A program made the position numbers and the translations under genes. Below, in pieces: positions 3,791 through 39,752 of a DNA stretch of 64,000 nucleotides (within the stretch, counting starts at the first letter, position 1; each line of letters begins with the position of its first letter). This DNA is from Sphaerisporangium siamense (GTDB taxonomy: Bacteria; Actinomycetota; Actinomycetes; Streptosporangiales; Streptosporangiaceae), in contig NZ_JACHND010000001.1 in the NCBI RefSeq assembly GCF_014205275.1, positions 7,130,001 to 7,194,000 of the forward strand, read 5' to 3'. A model generated the notes under the pieces. The model ran no database searches, was not told the origin of the DNA, and worked only from the letters and a program-made list of their open reading frames with translations.

Positions 3791-5845
3791 ATGCGGCGGC
3801 TTGGATGGATGGGCTGGACCGCGGTGGCGGTCGCGACCGCGTCGGCGACGATCGTCGCCGCGGGGCTGGCCGTGCGCCTGCAGATTCCGGTGGCGGACCG
3901 GATACGTCCGGGCGTGGTGACCGGCGACGACGTGGTGGGCGTGGCCTACCCGTTGCTCGGCCTGCTGCTGACGCTGCGCAGGCCCCGCCTGCTGCCGGCG
4001 TGGCTCATGCTCGGCGGCGGCCTCGCCACCGCGACGCTCTGCCTGTCCCAGGGCTTCTACGAGCAGGCGCACCTCGCGGGCGACCGGACGTCCGTGACCC
4101 TCATCGGCGACTACAACGCCGCCATGGGCGCGGTGTGCATCGTCTGCGTCGACCTGCTGATCCCCCTGCTGTTCCCGGACGGCCGCCTGCCCTCCCGCCG
4201 CTGGCGGCCGGTGGCCGTGTTCGCCGTCGGGACGATCGTCGTGCTGGCGTTCCTGCACGTCGTGCGGCCCTCGGCGCCCGGCTCCCCCAACCCCCTCGCG
4301 GTCCCCTTCCTCGCGCCGCTGGCCGAGCTGACCGCCGCGCCGGACGTGGACTGGTACCTCGTCGCCGAGGGCCTGTGCCTGCTGTCCCTGCTGGACCGTT
4401 TCCGGACCACGGACGCCGCGGGCCGGCGCCAGATCGGCTGGCTGCTGTACGCGGTCGCCGCCAACTGGGCCGTGGAGGAGTGGATGCCGTTCTCCGTGCC
4501 CGCCATGCTGACGACGGCCGCGATCCCCGTCGCCGTGGCGGTCGCCGTGACCCGCTACCGCCTGTACGGCATCGACACGCTGGTCAGCCGCACGCTGATC
4601 GCGGCCGGGCTGGTCGGCGCGGTCGGCGCCGTCTACTTCGCGGTCAGCACGCTCGGCCTGGTCGCGGCCGGGCTCGGGCAGCTCGCCGGCCTCGCCGCCG
4701 CCCTGTTCGCGGGCGCGGCGTTCCAGCCGCTGCGGCGCGCGCTGCGGCGGCTCGTCGACCTGGCCTTCTACGGGCACAGCGGCGACCCGCGCCGGCTGGC
4801 CGAGCGGCTCACCATGGAGGTGCACAGCGCCGACCCCGCGGGCGCGCTGGCGGCCGTGGTCGCGACCGCGCGCGACAGCCTGAACGTGTCCGGCGTGACC
4901 GTGGAGGTGGCCGGGGGGCGTCCCGGGCGCGTGGCGATCGGGACGGTCGGCGCCGCGCCCCGCGAGGTGCCGCTGGTCTGGCACGGCGAACCCGTCGGCC
5001 GCATGCTCATCGGCCGCCCCGGCCCGCGCCGGTTCCCCCGCGCCTACGACGAGCGGATGATCGCGACGCTCACGCCGTTCGCGGCCGACGTGGCCCACGC
5101 CGCGCGCATGGCCGCCGACCTGCAGCGCTCACGCGAGCGCATCCTCGCCGCGCGTGAGGAGGAGCGCCGCCGCCTGCGCCGCGACCTGCACGACGGCCTC
5201 GGCCAGGCCCTCGGCGACATGTCCATGTCGGTCACGGTCGCCAGGAAGCTGCTGCGCGACTCGCCGGAGTCGGCCGAGCCGCTGCTCGCCCGGCTGCGCG
5301 GCGGCATGGACCGGATCACCCAGGAGATCCGCGAGCTGGTCTACGGCCTGCGCCCGCCCGCGCTGGACGACCTCGGCCTCGCCCTGGCCGTCGGACGCCT
5401 GGCCGAGCCGGACGCGCGGGTGGAGGCGCGCGGCGACCTGGGCGGGCTGCCCGCGGCGGTCGAGGTGGCGGCCTACCGGATCGCGCAGGAGGCGCTGACC
5501 AACGCCCGCCGCCACGCCCGGGCCTCCTCGATCCTGGTGGAGCTGTCCCGCTCCCCCGAGGCGCTGTGCCTGCGCGTCCGCGACGACGGCGCCGGGCTCG
5601 CGCCGGACGCGCGCGGGGGCGTGGGGCTGGCGTCCATGCGCGAGCGCGCGGCCGAGCTGGGCGGGACCTGCGCGGTCACCTCCGCGCCCGGCGAGGGGAC
5701 CGTGGTCGAGGTCGTGCTCCCCGTGTCGGAGGACTCGGCTCCCGCCCCCGAGTCCGGCGGACCAGCGGGGCCGCCGCCGGAGACGCCTCCGCGCCCGGAG
5801 ACGTTCCTCCAGGCTGCGGGGCTGGAGGCCCTCGGCCGGGCGTGA
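3791..5845 (+). CDS. Membrane sensor histidine kinase, NarL/LiaS class (HK-A of a tandem pair)
   Basis: 684 residues. The N-terminal ~300 residues hold about eight hydrophobic segments. A GAF-like linker follows, then a HisKA_3 dimerization domain with the phospho-acceptor in RRDLHDGLGQAL (His467) and a HATPase domain (EALTNARRHARA N-box, RDDGAGL G1 box, GVGLASMRERA). The start is ATG 3791; the open frame extends further upstream but overlaps the MFS gene and lacks a better start. There is no response regulator beside it. The next gene is a full-length paralogue, with shared stretches such as RYRLYGIDT and FQPLRR. The partner regulator may be an orphan elsewhere (for example 51574-52242 or the SARP fusion at 10697); that is inference. 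Confidence 0.88.
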   Translation: MRRLGWMGWTAVAVATASATIVAAGLAVRLQIPVADRIRPGVVTGDDVVGVAYPLLGLLLTLRRPRLLPAWLMLGGGLATATLCLSQGFYEQAHLAGDRTSVTLIGDYNAAMGAVCIVCVDLLIPLLFPDGRLPSRRWRPVAVFAVGTIVVLAFLHVVRPSAPGSPNPLAVPFLAPLAELTAAPDVDWYLVAEGLCLLSLLDRFRTTDAAGRRQIGWLLYAVAANWAVEEWMPFSVPAMLTTAAIPVAVAVAVTRYRLYGIDTLVSRTLIAAGLVGAVGAVYFAVSTLGLVAAGLGQLAGLAAALFAGAAFQPLRRALRRLVDLAFYGHSGDPRRLAERLTMEVHSADPAGALAAVVATARDSLNVSGVTVEVAGGRPGRVAIGTVGAAPREVPLVWHGEPVGRMLIGRPGPRRFPRAYDERMIATLTPFAADVAHAARMAADLQRSRERILAAREEERRRLRRDLHDGLGQALGDMSMSVTVARKLLRDSPESAEPLLARLRGGMDRITQEIRELVYGLRPPALDDLGLALAVGRLAEPDARVEARGDLGGLPAAVEVAAYRIAQEALTNARRHARASSILVELSRSPEALCLRVRDDGAGLAPDARGGVGLASMRERAAELGGTCAVTSAPGEGTVVEVVLPVSEDSAPAPESGGPAGPPPETPPRPETFLQAAGLEALGRA

Positions 5846-5965
5846 CCCGGACGGCCGGGGCGACCCGACACGGCTCAATGGACGAAATATCGCTTCTTGT
5901 CGGCCCATAATTCGGTGATGCCGGAAACCACGCGAACGGTACCGGCCCAGGGAAAGGTGCACGGA

Positions 5966-33852: not shown

Positions 33853-35862
33853 TCATTCTTTGCCAGTCTTGTCCAGACTGTCCATTTTATTGAGCTTGGC
33901 AAGGTAGGCGTTATAGGCGTCCAACGCGGCGTCCCCGGTGCCGCCCACCCGCGCGGCGCGCGCGTCGGCGCGGCGGTCGGCGCGCCGGGCCGTGCGGTCC
34001 TCGGCCCGGTACCACTGGAAGGCCAGCGCGATCAGGACGATCAGCGTGGGGATCTCGCCGAAGGCCCAGGCGATGCCGCCGCCGGTGCTCTGGTCGGCCA
34101 GCCCCGACGCCCCCCAGGTGCGGCCGAGCTGGTCGTACCACTCGGCGGCGATCACGGTGCCCATGTTCATCAGCGCGATGCCGAAGAACGCGTGGAACGG
34201 CATGGTCACGAACAACAGCAGCAGCCGCCCGACGTAGGGCAGCCGGGTGGGCGCCGGGTCCACGCCGATGATCACCCAGAAGAACAGGCAGCCGCTGAGC
34301 AGGAAGTGCAGCGTCATCGCGATGTGGCCGAGGTGCTCCTCCATGGCCGCGGTGAACAGCGGCGTGAAGTACAGCATGTAGGTGGAGGTCACGAAGAGGA
34401 TCGTGGCCACGGCCGGGTGGGTGACGACCTTGGTGATCCTGCTGTGGAGGATCGCCGTGATCCACTCGCGGGGGCCGCGGTCGCCGCGCCGCGCGGCGGG
34501 CTTCAGCGCGCGCAGCGCGAGCGTCACCGGGGCGCCGAGCACCAGGAAGATCGGCACCAGCATCGACAGAACCATGTGCTCGGCCATGTGCACGCTGAAC
34601 AGCACCGGCGCGTACCGGGCGACGCCGCTCTGCGTGACCAGCACCAGCAGGAGCACGCCCACGCCCCAGCTGATCGTGCGGCCCACCGGCCAGCGGTCGC
34701 CGCGGCGGGCCAGCCGGACCACCCCCGCGCCGTACAGCCCGGCCAGGACGGCGGCGATCACGCCGAAGAACAGGTCGAACCACCACAGGGACGCGAGGTT
34801 GGCCACCGAGACCGGCGGCGGGACGACGTAGCCGAGCAGCTCGAACGCCCGGTCCAGAGGCTGGTCCAGCAGCGGCGGCGGCGCGGTGCGCGAGAGGGCG
34901 ACCGCCAGGCCCACGGCCAGCAGCATGACGAGGCCCTCGGCCCCCGCGAGCCGGACGAACGCGCCGGGCCTGCCCGCGGACAGCTCGGGCAGCGTACGGC
35001 GGCGGTGCCACCATCCGAGCACCCCGAGGGCGGTGAAGGCGACGGCCTTGGCCACGAGGATCAGCCCGTAGGAGGTGGTGAACAGCTCCGCGACGGAGGT
35101 CAGGCGGGCCAGCGCGCTGAACATGCCGGAGAGGCCGGTGCCGATGAAGCACCACAGCGCCATGCGGGAGAAGCGGTCGGCGGCGAGGTCCAGGTGCGGC
35201 CCGCCGCGCAGGGCGTGGGCGCACAGCAACAGCAGCCCGCCCACCCACAGCGACAGCACCGCCAGGTGCAGGGCGACGCCGGTCGTGGCGAGGCTGTGGT
35301 TGGGCGCGGAGGAGGAGTGGCCGGTGAGCGCCGGCGGCATGAGCGTGGCCAAAGCCAGCACCAGCAGGCCGCCTGAGGCGCCTGTGGTGATCGCGCCGCG
35401 CGAGAACAGCGCGATGGCGGTGCCGAACAGCACCACGAGCGTGAGCGAGATGCCCTGCGGGACCTGGCTGGCGTAGCTGGTGAGCTCGTTGCCGCCGAGC
35501 GCCTCGGCGACGGGGATGCCGAGGGTCTCCGACAGGCTGAACACCAGCGACGAGGCGGCGGCGAGCGCCCAGAGCAGCGCCGTCCACGCCGCGGCCCGCA
35601 CGTAGACCTGGGCGGGCTTGCCCAGCAGGCCCTTGTCGCTGGGCAGGAAGACGGTGGCGGTGAGCAGCAGGCCGACGGTCAGCACGCCGGCGACGTCCAT
35701 GGTCAGCTTGGAGACGGGCAACGCCCACCGGGTGAGAGTGCCCTCGTCGGGCAGGCCGGGGATGATGCGGGGGGTGGCCGCGCCGCCCGCGACCATGGCG
35801 GCGACCAGGCCCGCGAGCGCCGCGCACACCCCCGCGACGGCGAGACGGACCGCCCTGCTCAC
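33853..35862 (-). CDS. Copper resistance protein D fused to a CtaG-like domain
   Basis: 669 residues with about 13-14 transmembrane segments. The N-terminal half is CopD (TGVALHLAVLSLWVGGLLLL, FSRMALWCFIGTGLSG), proposed in the family to move copper across the membrane. The C-terminal half is a caa3_CtaG-type domain (FSVHMAEHMVLSMLVPIFLV, with its His/Met cluster). The C-terminal tail is cytoplasmic, Arg/Asp-rich. GTG 35862 overlaps the copC stop as GTGA, so the two genes are translationally coupled. Role: copper acquisition or delivery to cytochrome oxidase; inferred from family. Confidence 0.92.
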   Translation of the reverse strand: MSRAVRLAVAGVCAALAGLVAAMVAGGAATPRIIPGLPDEGTLTRWALPVSKLTMDVAGVLTVGLLLTATVFLPSDKGLLGKPAQVYVRAAAWTALLWALAAASSLVFSLSETLGIPVAEALGGNELTSYASQVPQGISLTLVVLFGTAIALFSRGAITTGASGGLLVLALATLMPPALTGHSSSAPNHSLATTGVALHLAVLSLWVGGLLLLCAHALRGGPHLDLAADRFSRMALWCFIGTGLSGMFSALARLTSVAELFTTSYGLILVAKAVAFTALGVLGWWHRRRTLPELSAGRPGAFVRLAGAEGLVMLLAVGLAVALSRTAPPPLLDQPLDRAFELLGYVVPPPVSVANLASLWWFDLFFGVIAAVLAGLYGAGVVRLARRGDRWPVGRTISWGVGVLLLVLVTQSGVARYAPVLFSVHMAEHMVLSMLVPIFLVLGAPVTLALRALKPAARRGDRGPREWITAILHSRITKVVTHPAVATILFVTSTYMLYFTPLFTAAMEEHLGHIAMTLHFLLSGCLFFWVIIGVDPAPTRLPYVGRLLLLFVTMPFHAFFGIALMNMGTVIAAEWYDQLGRTWGASGLADQSTGGGIAWAFGEIPTLIVLIALAFQWYRAEDRTARRADRRADARAARVGGTGDAALDAYNAYLAKLNKMDSLDKTGKE

Positions 35863-36455
35863 GACTTCTTCCGCAGGCTGATCGCCGTGCCGATGCCGAT
35901 GCCGGCGATGCCGAAGACGGCGATCCACAGCCAGGCGGGGATGCCGGAGCCCTCGTCCTGCTGGTCGGCCTGGCCGGCCACCGGGGTCGGGGTGAAGGGC
36001 GGCGGCGAGCTCGTCACGGGCGCGGGCTGCTCGGGCGAGGCCGGCGCCGAGGACGTCTCCGAGGTGGTGGGCGTCGGCGAGGCGGCGGTGGGGGCCTTCA
36101 CGGTGAAGGGGATCTCCCCCTCGATGGGGTGGCCGTCGACCGAGACCACGCGCCAGGCGATGACGTACTTGCCGGACGGCAGCGCGCCGGAGACCTTCTG
36201 CGTGACCGTCGCGCCGTCGAGCTTCGCCTTGCCGTCCTGGTGGGCGCGGCCGTCGGCGTCACGGACCAGGACGACGGGGAACTTCACGCTCTCGGTGAAG
36301 GTCAGCGTCACCCCCTCCAGGGTCTCGACCGTGGAGCCCTTCTTGGGGTCGCTGCTCTTCAGGGCCGTGTGGGCCAGCGCCGGCGAGGCCAGGGCGGTGC
36401 CGAGCACAAGGGCGGCGAGGAGCGCGAGCGCGGCGGCGAGCGGAGAAGTCCTCAT
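35859..36455 (-). CDS. copC: CopC copper-binding protein
   Basis: 198 residues. Signal peptide ends at ALA, so the mature protein starts AHTALKSSDPKKGST, putting His at the Cu(II) site near the N-terminus typical of CopC. The CopC beta-barrel is followed by a Pro/Thr/Ser linker and a C-terminal membrane anchor (IPAWLWIAVFGIAGIGIGTA) ending in RKKS. Coupled with the copD-ctaG fusion (GTGA overlap). Expected to bind copper outside the membrane and hand it to CopD. Confidence 0.92.
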   Translation of the reverse strand: MRTSPLAAALALLAALVLGTALASPALAHTALKSSDPKKGSTVETLEGVTLTFTESVKFPVVLVRDADGRAHQDGKAKLDGATVTQKVSGALPSGKYVIAWRVVSVDGHPIEGEIPFTVKAPTAASPTPTTSETSSAPASPEQPAPVTSSPPPFTPTPVAGQADQQDEGSGIPAWLWIAVFGIAGIGIGTAISLRKKS

Positions 36456-36609: not shown

Positions 36610-37905
36610 TCACAGGCCGACGCAGGCCAGGGCCTGCTGGTAGGCGGCCACGCTGGCCTCGCCGTCGTCCATCCGCTCCAGGGCGGTGGCGGCGGTCAGC
36701 CAGCCCTCGGCCGTCTTGCGCGTGACCGGCGAGGAGGACAGCAGGTCCTCGGCGGCGACGAGCTCGGCGGCGGCCTCCTCCGTGCGCCCGAGCGAGAGCA
36801 GGGCGTTGCCGAGCACGAGGTGGGCGTCCGCGCGCACGGAACGGGGACGCTCCTGGGCCAGTTCGTTGGCCCGGCGGGCGTACCCGGCGGCCTTGTCGGG
36901 GTTGTGGAGGGCCATCTCGACCTTGGCCAGCTCGACGGCGCACCGGGCGCGGTCGGCGACGCTGCCGGAGCTCTCGGTCAGCTCGCGCTCGCCGCGCAGG
37001 AACAGGTCGCGGCACGCCTCGGCCTCCGCCGGGCTGGCCCGGAACCGCAGGACGGCGACGGCCAGCCGCAGCCGGGCCAGGTTGCGCGGCTCGGCGCCGT
37101 TCTCCGACTGGATGGCGAGGGCGCGTTCGCCGAAGGCCAGGGCCTCGGCGATGCGGCCGGTGCGCTCGGCGACGATGGCGGCGTTCCAGCAGGCGGCGAC
37201 GGTGGCACGGGGGGTGCCGAGCATCTCGGCGGCCGACAGCAGCTCGGCGGCGAACTGCTCGGCCCTGAGCATGTCGTTGCGCAGCTCGTAGGCGGACAGC
37301 AGCGTGGCCCCGAGCTCGACGAGGTCGTCGGTCCAGGCGGGGCGGGCCGGGCCGATGATGGCCTCTTCGCCGACGCGCACGGCGGCGGCGAGGTCGCCCG
37401 ACTCGCGGTAGCACCGGGAGAGCGCGATGGCGACGGCGATGGAACGGTCCGGAGGCAGCGGATCGCTACCGGGCTCGCGCAGCCGGCACAGGACGGAGAT
37501 CGCCTCGTCGAGGTCCCCGCACGCCTCGCTGGCCAGGGCGTAGCCGTATTCGGCCTCCTGGCGCAGGGAGATGAGGCCGGCGAGGCTGCCGTCCTCCAGC
37601 AGCTCGGCGTAGCGCCGCCGCGCCTCGGTGACCTCACCGTTGTTGAGGGCGAGGCTGGCGTACCGCAGGCCGAGCTCCAGCTCCTGCATCTGCTCGGCGG
37701 TGACACCGTTGATCAGATATGTCAGCGAGCAATCGAGCTTGGCCGCCAGCAGTTCCAGAACCGCCGCCGTCGGCGTACGCTTGCCACTCTCAATGAGTGA
37801 CACATAACTGTCTGAGAGTTCAGGGTGCGCCAGTTGTGCTTGCGAAAGACCACGCTGGCGACGAATCGTCTTGATTCGCTGGCCTATGAGATCTTGACCA
37901 GTCAC
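36610..37905 (-). CDS. XRE helix-turn-helix regulator with C-terminal TPR repeats (RRNPP-like)
   Basis: 431 residues. Residues ~6-65 are an XRE DNA-binding domain (IKTIRRQRGLSQAQLAHPEL, SDSYVSLIESGKRTPTAAVL). Residues ~75-425 are a run of tetratricopeptide-like helix pairs (for example ARRRYAELLEDGSLAGLISL; AVRVGEEAIIGPARPAWTDD; AAGYARRANELAQERPRSVR). This is the domain order of RRNPP peptide-pheromone receptors (PlcR, NprR), where the TPRs bind a short peptide. GTG 37905 has AAGGAG 5 bases upstream. Fifty-four bases away and divergent is a 44-codon gene for a secreted small peptide (37960-38094). Peptide control is inferred from architecture and context, not shown. Confidence 0.82.
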   Translation of the reverse strand: MTGQDLIGQRIKTIRRQRGLSQAQLAHPELSDSYVSLIESGKRTPTAAVLELLAAKLDCSLTYLINGVTAEQMQELELGLRYASLALNNGEVTEARRRYAELLEDGSLAGLISLRQEAEYGYALASEACGDLDEAISVLCRLREPGSDPLPPDRSIAVAIALSRCYRESGDLAAAVRVGEEAIIGPARPAWTDDLVELGATLLSAYELRNDMLRAEQFAAELLSAAEMLGTPRATVAACWNAAIVAERTGRIAEALAFGERALAIQSENGAEPRNLARLRLAVAVLRFRASPAEAEACRDLFLRGERELTESSGSVADRARCAVELAKVEMALHNPDKAAGYARRANELAQERPRSVRADAHLVLGNALLSLGRTEEAAAELVAAEDLLSSSPVTRKTAEGWLTAATALERMDDGEASVAAYQQALACVGL

Positions 37906-37959
37906 TGGCACTCCTTGAAGATGTAAAGCCCCGACAACTGCCACGAACGGGAGTTCTCC

Positions 37960-38094
37960 ATGCGTCGTCGCCGTCTCGCCCTCTCGGCCCTGAGCGTATG
38001 CTTCCTCGCCCTGCTGGGCGTCGGAGCCAATGCTATGACTGCCGAAGCTTCCACGTCTTCCCATCTCATGGCAAACGACTTCCCTTGCTGCTGA
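37960..38094 (+). CDS. Small secreted peptide precursor, candidate cognate pheromone of the XRE-TPR regulator
   Basis: 44 codons. ATG 37960 has GGGAG 6 bases upstream. The product begins MRRRRLALSALSVCFLALLG: a positive N-terminus then a hydrophobic core, a good Sec signal peptide. Cleavage is plausible after ANA or after AEA, leaving a tail of about 14-19 residues ending ANDFPCC. Codon use is less GC-biased than in neighbours, common in tiny genes. It is divergent from the XRE-TPR regulator (54-base gap) and convergent with pucR (8-base gap). This is the layout of PapR- or NprX-type pheromone genes. I am fairly sure it is translated (ribosome site plus signal peptide); the signalling role is inference. 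Confidence 0.6.
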   Translation: MRRRRLALSALSVCFLALLGVGANAMTAEASTSSHLMANDFPCC

Positions 38095-38102
38095 TTTGTG
38101 AC

Positions 38103-39752
38103 TCAACAGGCACGTAGCGCGAGAAACAGGTCAACCCTGTCCGCCATAGAGGACAGGTTCCGTCCTGTGAGCTCCTCGACCCGCTGAATGCGGTAGCGCA
38201 CCGTGTTGACATGCACGTGCAGCCGCGCCGCGCATCCGTTCCAGGAGCCGGCGCAGTCGAGAAACTCCTCAAGGGTACGGACCAGCTCCGACCGGTGACG
38301 CCGGTCGTACTCGAAAAGCGGTTCCAAGATCCGCTGCGCGAACGATCGCCGCACCTCGTCGGGCACGGTGGCCAGCAGAAGATCACAGGTGTAGATCTCA
38401 TCGCTGGTCACCACCCCTCCACCTCGCGCCTCCGCAAGACGCCGCGCGTGAGCCGCCTCTTCCGCGCCCCCGCGGACGGCTCCGGGCCCGGTCAGGACGG
38501 CGCTCACGCCGACTGACACCCGCACCTGCCGGTGACCGGCCTGGAGCGTCGCCACTCCGTCCCTCAGCAGGCCCAAAACCGCGTGCACACTACGGTGCAC
38601 ATGCGTTCGGTCTTGCAATTGCACGGTAAGTCGCACGGGCACCTCTGCGCCAGGCCTGTCTTCCCATTTTTCTTTCTTCTCTCGTGCCGTGTTCGGTTCG
38701 TCCTCGCGCGCCCCGGAGCCGGAAAACGCCCGCAGAGGGACGATCGCGACGGCTCCCGCCATGTCTCCGGCCTGCACGGCGGCCACCACGCGGCGGGCCA
38801 GCGACTCCTCCAGCACCCGCCCGCCCAGCTCGGCCGGGCCCGGCCCGGCCGCCGCGCCGGGCGGCGCGGCCGTCGCGGCGACCATGACGTACGGCTCCGC
38901 GGCGCCGATGCCGCAGGTGCGCAGCCGCGCCGCCAACTCGGCCGCGTCCGGGGCCGCTGAGCGGGCGAGCGCGACGAGCTGCCCCGCCAGCCGTCGCTCC
39001 ACCCGTCGCCCCTCCTCGGCCCGGCCCCGCGCGAGCGCCGCGCAGGCCGCCAGTTCGAAGCCTACGTCCGCACGGTCCAGCAGGTCGGACCCGAGCACCA
39101 GCGCCCAGCCCGCCGCCCGGTGCGTGCGATCCACCGCGAACAACGTGTACGGCCCGTCCGGGGTGCGGGCCACGTGCGGCAGCCGGGGCGCGGCGAGGAA
39201 CTCGCGGGCCAGCCGCGCCGCGAGACCGCCGTCCAGGTCGCCGGCCACCACCGTGCCGGTGGCCGACACGACCGCGCCCTCGACGCCCAGCTCACGGCGG
39301 GTCAGCGCGCACAGCTCCTCCAGGCCGCCGCCCTCGGCGACGGCGGCGACGATGCGGCGGTGCAGGCCGAGCGCGCCGCGCGGGTCGGCCAGGCGCGCCT
39401 CCACCTTCTCCCCCAGCGTGCGGAAGGAGGTCTCCTCCGGCACGTCGAGCAGCGGAAGGTCATGCGCGCGGCACGCCTCGGCCAGGTCGCGCGGCACATC
39501 GCCGAGCAGCGCGCGCCCGGCGCCGAGCGCGGCGACCCCGGCGGCGGCGAGGGCCTCGACGAAGCGGCGCGAGTCGCCCGGCTCGCGCCGCCACATGAGC
39601 CCGGTGAGCACCAGCTCGCCGCCGGACAGGTACCTGCCGGGGTCGGGCAGGTCGGTGATGTGCACCCCGGAGAACGGCCGGTCCAGATGGGCGGGATCCG
39701 ACAACAGGGTCAGCCCAAGCTCCCCCATGGCGATCAGCTCGCGTATCCGCAT
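38103..39752 (-). CDS. PucR family transcriptional regulator
   Basis: 549 residues. An N-terminal PucR domain (about 1-120: GVHITDLPDPGRYLSGGELV; LPLLDVPEETSFRTLGEKV), a GGDEF-like middle region and a C-terminal HTH_30 (CAARLHVHVNTVRYRIQRVE). PucR activates purine-degradation genes in Bacillus. Here it is divergent from a xanthine-dehydrogenase-type subunit 115 bases away, supporting control of that gene. A low-complexity insert (REKKEKWEDRPG) lies mid-protein. The start ATG 39752 is supported by MRIRELIAM, typical of the family N-terminus. Confidence 0.88.
   Translation of the reverse strand: MRIRELIAMGELGLTLLSDPAHLDRPFSGVHITDLPDPGRYLSGGELVLTGLMWRREPGDSRRFVEALAAAGVAALGAGRALLGDVPRDLAEACRAHDLPLLDVPEETSFRTLGEKVEARLADPRGALGLHRRIVAAVAEGGGLEELCALTRRELGVEGAVVSATGTVVAGDLDGGLAARLAREFLAAPRLPHVARTPDGPYTLFAVDRTHRAAGWALVLGSDLLDRADVGFELAACAALARGRAEEGRRVERRLAGQLVALARSAAPDAAELAARLRTCGIGAAEPYVMVAATAAPPGAAAGPGPAELGGRVLEESLARRVVAAVQAGDMAGAVAIVPLRAFSGSGAREDEPNTAREKKEKWEDRPGAEVPVRLTVQLQDRTHVHRSVHAVLGLLRDGVATLQAGHRQVRVSVGVSAVLTGPGAVRGGAEEAAHARRLAEARGGGVVTSDEIYTCDLLLATVPDEVRRSFAQRILEPLFEYDRRHRSELVRTLEEFLDCAGSWNGCAARLHVHVNTVRYRIQRVEELTGRNLSSMADRVDLFLALRAC

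Follow-up and report, generated by a model that had tools for sequence, protein, structure and literature searches.

The question raised by this locus of Sphaerisporangium siamense is whether an XRE-TPR regulator and the small gene beside it form a peptide-pheromone pair of the RRNPP type in an actinomycete. The locus lies in a window of 64,000 nucleotides (i.e. the whole stretch of DNA analysed) taken from a host genome of 8.5 Mb. RRNPP members studied to date are described in a 2016 review as coming from bacilli, streptococci or enterococci (PMC4873490), RRNPP_detector was applied to Firmicutes and viruses (PMC10075063) and quorum sensing in actinomycetes is described as small-molecule based (PMC10075063, PMC4748050). 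A 2016 review of actinobacterial quorum sensing (PMC4748050) mentions neither RRNPP, RNPP nor PlcR; its table assigns TPR-domain parts to Streptomyces, Rhodococcus, Saccharopolyspora and Thermobifida, and its text deals mostly with LuxR-type multidomain proteins, with no peptide partner named. No actinomycete RRNPP pair was found in the open-access literature searched.

The features of the locus are collected in Table 1. The initial annotation had described an XRE-TPR regulator divergent, across 54 bases, from a 44-codon gene with a ribosome site, an Arg4 signal peptide and an FPCC end. ORF, Pfam and AlphaFold2 analyses bore out the coordinates, the gap, the HTH and the TPR region, and the ORF and its sequence agreed with every element of the small gene; the FPCC end had been recorded, but the terminal Cys-Cys as a hallmark and the spread over many families had been overlooked. 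In the regulator, Pfam placed HTH_3 at residues 11-64 (3.2e-11); matches to four TPR families also exceeded their gathering scores. The AlphaFold2 model, built from 11 sequences, reached a pLDDT of 87.7 and a pTM of 0.79 and is composed of the HTH followed by nine helix pairs (assigned by reading); the HTH domain was largely invariant across 11 aligned regulator sequences.

Table 1. Features of the locus; positions are those of the window
Feature	Position	Strand	Basis
CtaG/CopD-like protein	33853-35928	-	Pfam/ORF
CopC protein	35859-36455	-	Pfam/ORF
XRE-TPR regulator, 431 aa, proposed cytoplasmic peptide receptor	36610..37905	-	ORF, start, Pfam, model
Regulator start (GTG) and stop	37903-37905 (start); 36610-36612 (stop)	-	ORF
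Regulator RBS, AAGGAG	37911..37916	-	Sequence
HTH DNA-binding domain, residues 7-66	37708..37887	-	Pfam HTH_3/HTH_19
TPR superhelix of nine helix pairs, residues 70-428	36622..37698	-	Helices in AlphaFold2 model
Proposed peptide groove, helices A of TPR4-TPR7, residues 193-332		-	Covariation and model
Ser204 codon, residue coupled to peptide position -3	37294..37296	-	Size covariation; prediction on new systems
Asn241 codon	37183..37185	-	Kept with CC tails, mostly altered in GW..P clade
Shared intergenic region, 54 bases, expected to hold both promoters and an operator (inferred)	37906..37959	.	
Small-gene RBS, GGGAG	37949..37953	+	Ends six bases ahead of ATG; similar motifs in relatives
Small gene, 44 aa, FPCC end, proposed pro-pheromone	37960..38094	+	ORF, conservation, enrichment
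Predicted signal peptide, residues 1-25	37960..38034	+	Arg4 n-region, hydrophobic core, A-N-A
Last eight residues MANDFPCC, terminal Cys-Cys, proposed recognised tail	38068..38091	+	Relatives, covariation
Candidate C-terminal tail ligands: STSSHLMANDFPCC, MANDFPCC, NDFPCC, DFPCC			
PucR-type regulator	38103-39752	-	Pfam/ORF

In most Streptosporangiaceae relatives the regulator and the small gene are 42-65 bases apart. Because the gap is so short, control of both genes by the regulator is likely. In the intergenic regions the best inverted repeats were short, with arms of 4 or 5 bases in 90 of 122, and differed by clade; no operator was established. Part of one family (f21) shares a 12-base palindrome, CTGTCATGACAG. 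In some loci the regulator start is overlapped by short repeats, for example CCAGTGACTGG or TGACCAGTCA.

The small gene runs from an ATG at 37960 to a stop at 38092-38094, which 8 bases separate from that of the convergent PucR-type gene, and encodes MRRRRLALSALSVCFLALLGVGANA-MTAEASTSSHLMANDFPCC, with a second potential site, A-E-A, at residues 28-30. Its product gave no Pfam family above cut-off and no NCBIfam match. Of 152 distinct peptides, 148 carry an [AVS]-x-A motif within residues 16-39, and the last such site is followed by a median of 13 residues; 121 of the 152 were CC-terminal, and in 107 of these 121 the last two residues were the sole Cys. Among the relatives compared, tails vary quickly and by class and the signal part retains its pattern.

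Relatives of the regulator were retrieved from all 11 genus genomes searched (its own included), 120 of 200 family genomes (E <= 1e-60, most matching genomes carrying one), 172 of 249 genomes of the order draw (1e-45), 42 of 296 (1e-45) and, with a profile, 80 of 394 (1e-40) genomes of the class draws, and 24 of 246 genomes of the phylum draw (1e-35), all these draws overlapping. In the first 40 loci (30 + 10, some of them duplicated), a CC-ended divergent ORF was present ~50-60 bases upstream in every case. For 141 distinct regulators, the divergent interval contained a small ORF ending in CC in 98 cases and a homologous one without CC in 16. Automatic rules, under which a CC peptide was a signal-peptide ORF with CC in its last eight residues, were then applied to 212 distinct regulators and gave 134 with a CC peptide, 24 with a CC-less one and 54 with none; in these counts two peptides are each assigned to two tandem regulators (L094, L177) and the last class includes at least two loci (L064, L065) having a peptide by other reading. 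The split was 87, 14 and 31 inside the family and 47, 10 and 23 for the 80 regulators outside it. A small ORF beside orthologous regulators, which the initial annotation had proposed to look for, is thus conserved.

The 134 CC partners were divergent in 122 cases, convergent downstream in 11 and co-directional in 1; the convergent downstream arrangement was seen, for instance, at L144, L238-L241, L243-L245 and L247. CC partners occur in ten family groups (f1, f11, f16, f21, f22, f27, f28, f29, f40 and f51), the last of which belongs to another class of the phylum. The partner is divergent at about 85-108 bases in f21 and further upstream in several other outside families. Tails outside the family include PGDFCC, WPGMCC, HPPTCC, GTWCC, NVWCC and GGIWCC; PWPHCC and PWPPCC come from a different class of the phylum. 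Only L221, L224 and L231 had a CC partner among the 27 phylum-draw loci (L211-L237). A divergent peptide was found in all of 41 further loci (40 from family and order searches, one from Nonomuraea gerenzanensis), of which 36 end in CC, 3 of these 36 regulators being already in the first set, and 5 in [GSN]WxxPD. Where regulators occur in tandem at L055, L059 and L084, each copy retains its own peptide. Neighbouring genes vary by family and the regulator and peptide persist: a tblastn search for the CopC, CtaG and PucR of the window gave no match in 82 other-family loci (flanks mostly of 1.5-3 kb per side), which designates the two genes as the conserved unit.

Several arrangements were recorded beside these. 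At L168, a second signal-peptide ORF (SLYCC, start near 4603, minus strand) lies downstream, a divergent CC peptide being present as well. At L094, L096 and L177, a single peptide gene stands between two consecutive regulators and its Cys pair is not quite terminal (tails GGGLCCYE, GGGACCYNV... and GGKCCYE). Among Streptomyces plasmid relatives, a CC-ended signal ORF was present in 1 of the 5 regions read, i.e. L274 (plasmid of Streptomyces sp. NBC_01707), where a PLCC-ended signal-peptide ORF lies near 5729 on the plus strand, ~1.9 kb past the regulator end, in a region annotated as hypothetical protein (5720-5884). A search of a phage collection for the regulator gave one partial unannotated match, in an unverified human-faeces phage record (L276, MT836207.1; 35.6% identity over 75%), with no CC peptide within the 3.6 kb read.

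The CC-ended ORFs are concentrated next to the regulators. In the divergent interval of 10-160 bases of the 212 regulators (31.8 kb), 101 of 134 signal-peptide ORFs end in CC, against 5 of 53 in the background more than 700 bases from regulators (1,106 kb of strand-sequence, i.e. ~35x the sequence of the divergent interval); the density of CC-ended signal-peptide ORFs was ~700x higher in the divergent interval than elsewhere in the same loci. At least one TGT Cys codon was present in 9 of 98 CC peptides, and the stops were TGA in 80, TAG in 16 and TAA in 2. Such silent variation of Cys and stop codons indicates that it is the residues that are conserved, and not the DNA. The pN/pS ratio was 0.60 for the signal part and 0.52 for the tail over 61 close, partly overlapping pairs, and at about 0.5-0.6 it shows coding constraint as far as overlapping pairs allow it to be estimated.

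A further line of evidence comes from the covariation between peptide tail and receptor. Peptide positions -3 to -10 were scanned against receptor columns in 125 CC systems; the pair -3/204 ranked first and -3/208 second, followed by -4/281 and -4/325. All four columns (204, 208, 281 and 325) are in helices A of TPR4, TPR6 and TPR7 in the model, with repeats as assigned, and altogether columns 201, 204, 208, 237, 241, 275, 281, 322 and 325 co-vary with the peptide tail or tail class. The weaker couplings outside helices A (e.g. columns 309, 340, 48 and 416) are probably noise. As many systems are close relatives, tree-based tests, which allow for kinship, have to be distinguished from raw counts, which do not. 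By independent contrasts, residue volume at -3 and at 204 was correlated with r = -0.54, first of 402 columns (next -0.31). When the set was enlarged to 158 systems and the tree built without the tested columns, the phylogenetically corrected r was -0.60, first of 404 columns and reached by 0 of 2000 permutations; that of -4 and 281 was -0.40, beyond all 2000 permutations. Position -6 was marginally coupled to 204 (+0.34, permutation p 0.02) and -7 was also marginal (p 0.05); no significant coupling to the receptor was detected for -5 and -8 in the same 158-system test.

In raw counts, Gly(-3) peptides stand opposite a bulky 204 (Leu, Met or Thr) in 15 of 15 cases, the number of changes by parsimony being 10 for Gly(-3) and, for a bulky residue at 204, 16, and a residue other than Gly/Ala/Ser at 204 was present in 21 of 24 systems with Gly/Ala/Ser(-3) vs 3 of 134 others. 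A rule set beforehand (Gly gives a bulky 204, any other residue a small one) was correct in 31 of 33 new CC systems, including 6 of 6 Gly cases, which represent only about two lineages. In both misses a small residue at -3 (Ala or Ser) faces Ile at 204, which is what size compensation would predict. Glu241 was present in 10 CC systems, all 10 with His(-3), with three changes by parsimony; L067 (FHCC, Glu241) and its close relative L066 (FMCC, Asn241) differ in this way while their peptide genes are 85% identical. Glu241 is absent from four His(-3) systems, one of which (L224) is also without Glu208. A C-terminal tail co-varying with the TPR groove, which the initial annotation had held to be supportive, was therefore found, in -3/204, in -4/281 and in the prediction on new systems. 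Groove residues can be predicted from the tail, which makes it most likely that the TPR groove binds the tail, and at the level of sequence comparison peptide and receptor evolve together as a ligand and its pocket would.

A clade of 16 CC-less systems, mostly with GW..P tails, has Leu or Trp in place of Ala237 in 16 of 16 and mostly changed Thr201, Asn241 and Asn275; 66 CC systems keep Ala237 in 66, Thr201 in 65, Asn241 in 64 and Asn275 in 63, a contrast that alone proves little since the CC-less clade is a single evolutionary event. Five new [GSN]WxxPD systems had the same groove changes as the GW..P clade. N241 and N275, conserved with CC tails, are in helices A of TPR5 and TPR6 and are candidate counterparts of RapF Asn227.

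Some regulators have no CC partner; the eight of genus g37 and the same-genome paralogue described below belong to the 54 for which the automatic rules gave no peptide. In one genus (g37; L113, L115, L117, L120-L122, L124 and L126) no peptide gene was found at 8 of 8 loci, and at L113 (3369-3449, read base by base) the PucR gene ends just ahead of the regulator with no peptide gene between; Glu241 is present in 8 of 8 receptors of this genus, as in HCC systems. We read these sequences as suggesting loss of the peptide gene. Likewise, no CC peptide was found for a same-genome paralogue of 33% identity (L158, L262) or for four relatives (L258-L261). In another family (f20), L229 (= L263), L232, L257 and L266 carry, 116-159 bases upstream of a distant XRE-TPR relative, a divergent signal-peptide ORF with an AANxGPA stretch and no Cys pair; the ORF at L230 is similar, and none was found at L265. 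These ORFs may represent a branch of the system without CC. In other classes of the phylum (L211-L214, L218 and L235), signal-peptide ORFs of 28-34 aa near the regulator end in FPWGGT, FPGP, FPWPK, NWPHVP, NWPHH or SWPHVP and resemble PWPHCC minus its cysteines. The divergent small ORF of L063 has a longer, partly repeated tail (LGWTYPE ... SAWTYAE), which looks like a duplication of the signal stretch.

Other explanations of the pair were weighed against a pheromone function. Many spurious ORFs arise in GC-rich genomes, and small ORFs ending in TGC TGC TGA could be a product of chance or composition; this reading, to which we attach next to no probability, is already refuted by the ~700-fold enrichment, the TGT and TAG/TAA variation, the coding constraint and the prediction of receptor residues. 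Toxin-antitoxin and RiPP loci commonly contain XRE regulators and small hydrophobic peptides, and the small protein could be a toxin or a precursor. This seems extremely improbable, given that Pfam scans of the neighbours (several of which had no match at all) revealed no known modifying enzyme and that neither reading predicts a hypervariable tail matched to a TPR groove.

We regard it as unlikely that the small protein acts as a co-regulator that is not secreted or stays in the membrane, its tail binding the groove within the producer to counter repression or to monitor Sec export. The covariation requires no more than contact between tail and groove, and most matching genomes of the family carry a single regulator match; against this stand the [AVS]-x-A motif in 148 of the 152 peptides and the fast, class-wise change of the tail beside a steady signal pattern, which is pherotype-like. 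The genes downstream of the regulator (copC and ctaG/copD-like, here and in many family loci) and the restriction of Cys to the last two residues in 107 of 121 CC-ended peptides could also suggest a metal or redox device, in which the Cys-Cys tail would bind copper or sense oxidation outside and the regulator would report to copC/ctaG. We consider this very unlikely: residue -3, beyond the CC alone, is tuned to the receptor, no CopC or CtaG match was obtained in the 82 other-family loci within the flanks covered (mostly 1.5-3 kb per side), and the GW..P clade keeps copC with a Cys-less tail. A copper or metal role of the CC tail was set aside on the last two grounds.

We favour the reading that the pair forms an RRNPP-like module of peptide and receptor with a di-cysteine signature, which is probably a pheromone system; that it works as a PlcR/PapR-like pheromone module appears likely to us. 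Given the signal peptide and the A-x-A sites, the simplest route would consist of export, cleavage, uptake and binding, as in PlcR/PapR. The small gene would yield a pro-peptide exported by Sec, and cleavage by signal peptidase after A-x-A would leave about 14 to 19 residues. The C-terminal Cys-Cys piece would re-enter by way of an ABC transporter for oligopeptides; for SBP_bac_5, an oligopeptide-binding family, 20 matches were counted in the genome. Once re-imported, the peptide would lie extended in the concave face of the TPR superhelix, with residue -3 packing on helix A of TPR4 (position 204), -4 reaching TPR6-TPR7 (281, 322) and T201, A237, N241 and N275 holding its CC end. Binding would alter the contact of the HTH with the short divergent promoter region, and probably with other promoters too, and autoinduction would be expected. 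The evidence, comparative throughout, demonstrates the two genes, their joint conservation, the CC signature, the likeness of fold and the covariation of tail with groove; export, cleavage, re-import, direct binding, the DNA targets, the direction of control (activation or repression) and intercellular use are all steps that we infer. More speculatively, and less likely than not, the pair may belong to an ancient signalling family of Actinomycetota predating the class split, with position 204 as its main pherotype switch and the terminal Cys-Cys as a redox switch; the cysteines would then form a vicinal disulfide outside, reduced after uptake, so that the receptor would answer only to peptide that had entered the cytoplasm.

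The recurrence of the pair across many actinomycete families points to a peptide-signalling system previously unrecognised there. If so, antibiotic-producing genera and their small-genome relatives would share a peptide language of short tails, which can be synthesised and tested directly. The covariation pinpoints the mutants to be made (204, 241 and peptide -3) and could allow pherotypes to be predicted from sequence.

The regulator was finally compared with known systems. It has the RRNPP architecture, i.e. an N-terminal HTH and a C-terminal TPR superhelix (Pfam, model), with an adjacent short pro-peptide gene, a predicted signal peptide and a variable C-terminal tail. In the A2 profile search, PlcR (E 1.6e-12 over the HTH and first TPRs) was the best natural chain among the 60 matches listed, among which engineered TPR proteins scored above it. 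Foldseek on the model gave TM values of about 0.53 by query and 0.62 by target for Rap and NprR, and of 0.39 and 0.54 for PlcR with PapR7 and DNA, generic TPR proteins equalling RRNPP receptors in E-value. The NsdA family of Streptomyces (NF053720), an actinomycete TPR-like regulator family, gave a weak partial match, and membership was rejected at a score of 15.1 vs a cut-off of 75 bits.

Helices A are described as forming most of the concave face in TPR superhelices, and in RapF the peptide is seated at TPR4-TPR7 with Asn227 holding its backbone (PMC3601957). Rap/Phr resembles the groove proposed here in its helices A at TPR4-TPR7, although repeat numbers need not correspond, and the fold matches that of Phi3T Rap. 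Rap proteins carry a 3-helix bundle where the regulator has an HTH. The ComS pheromone has a constant residue pair, Trp-Trp. ComR/ComS and Rgg/SHP, for which peptide-sensor coevolution has been described (PMC8605241), likewise combine an HTH receptor with a short pheromone having a constant residue pair, but belong to another phylum, and the pair here is Cys-Cys behind a classical A-x-A signal peptide. NprR/NprX shares an HTH-TPR receptor with a long TPR region (Foldseek 0.53/0.62 to 5dbk, weak profile match of 2.6e-5) and differs in phylum and peptide, the regulator here giving no hint of a second function beyond DNA. PlcR/PapR of the Bacillus cereus group, also from another phylum, has in common with our pair an XRE HTH with TPR, an adjacent small gene for an exported peptide and a ligand at the C-terminal end (PMC4873490, in part), while the present pair has nine helix pairs and a Cys-Cys tail. 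The likeness to the PlcR/PapR and NprR/NprX layout drawn by the initial annotation is therefore supported by the conserved pair, the PlcR profile match, Foldseek and the covariation.
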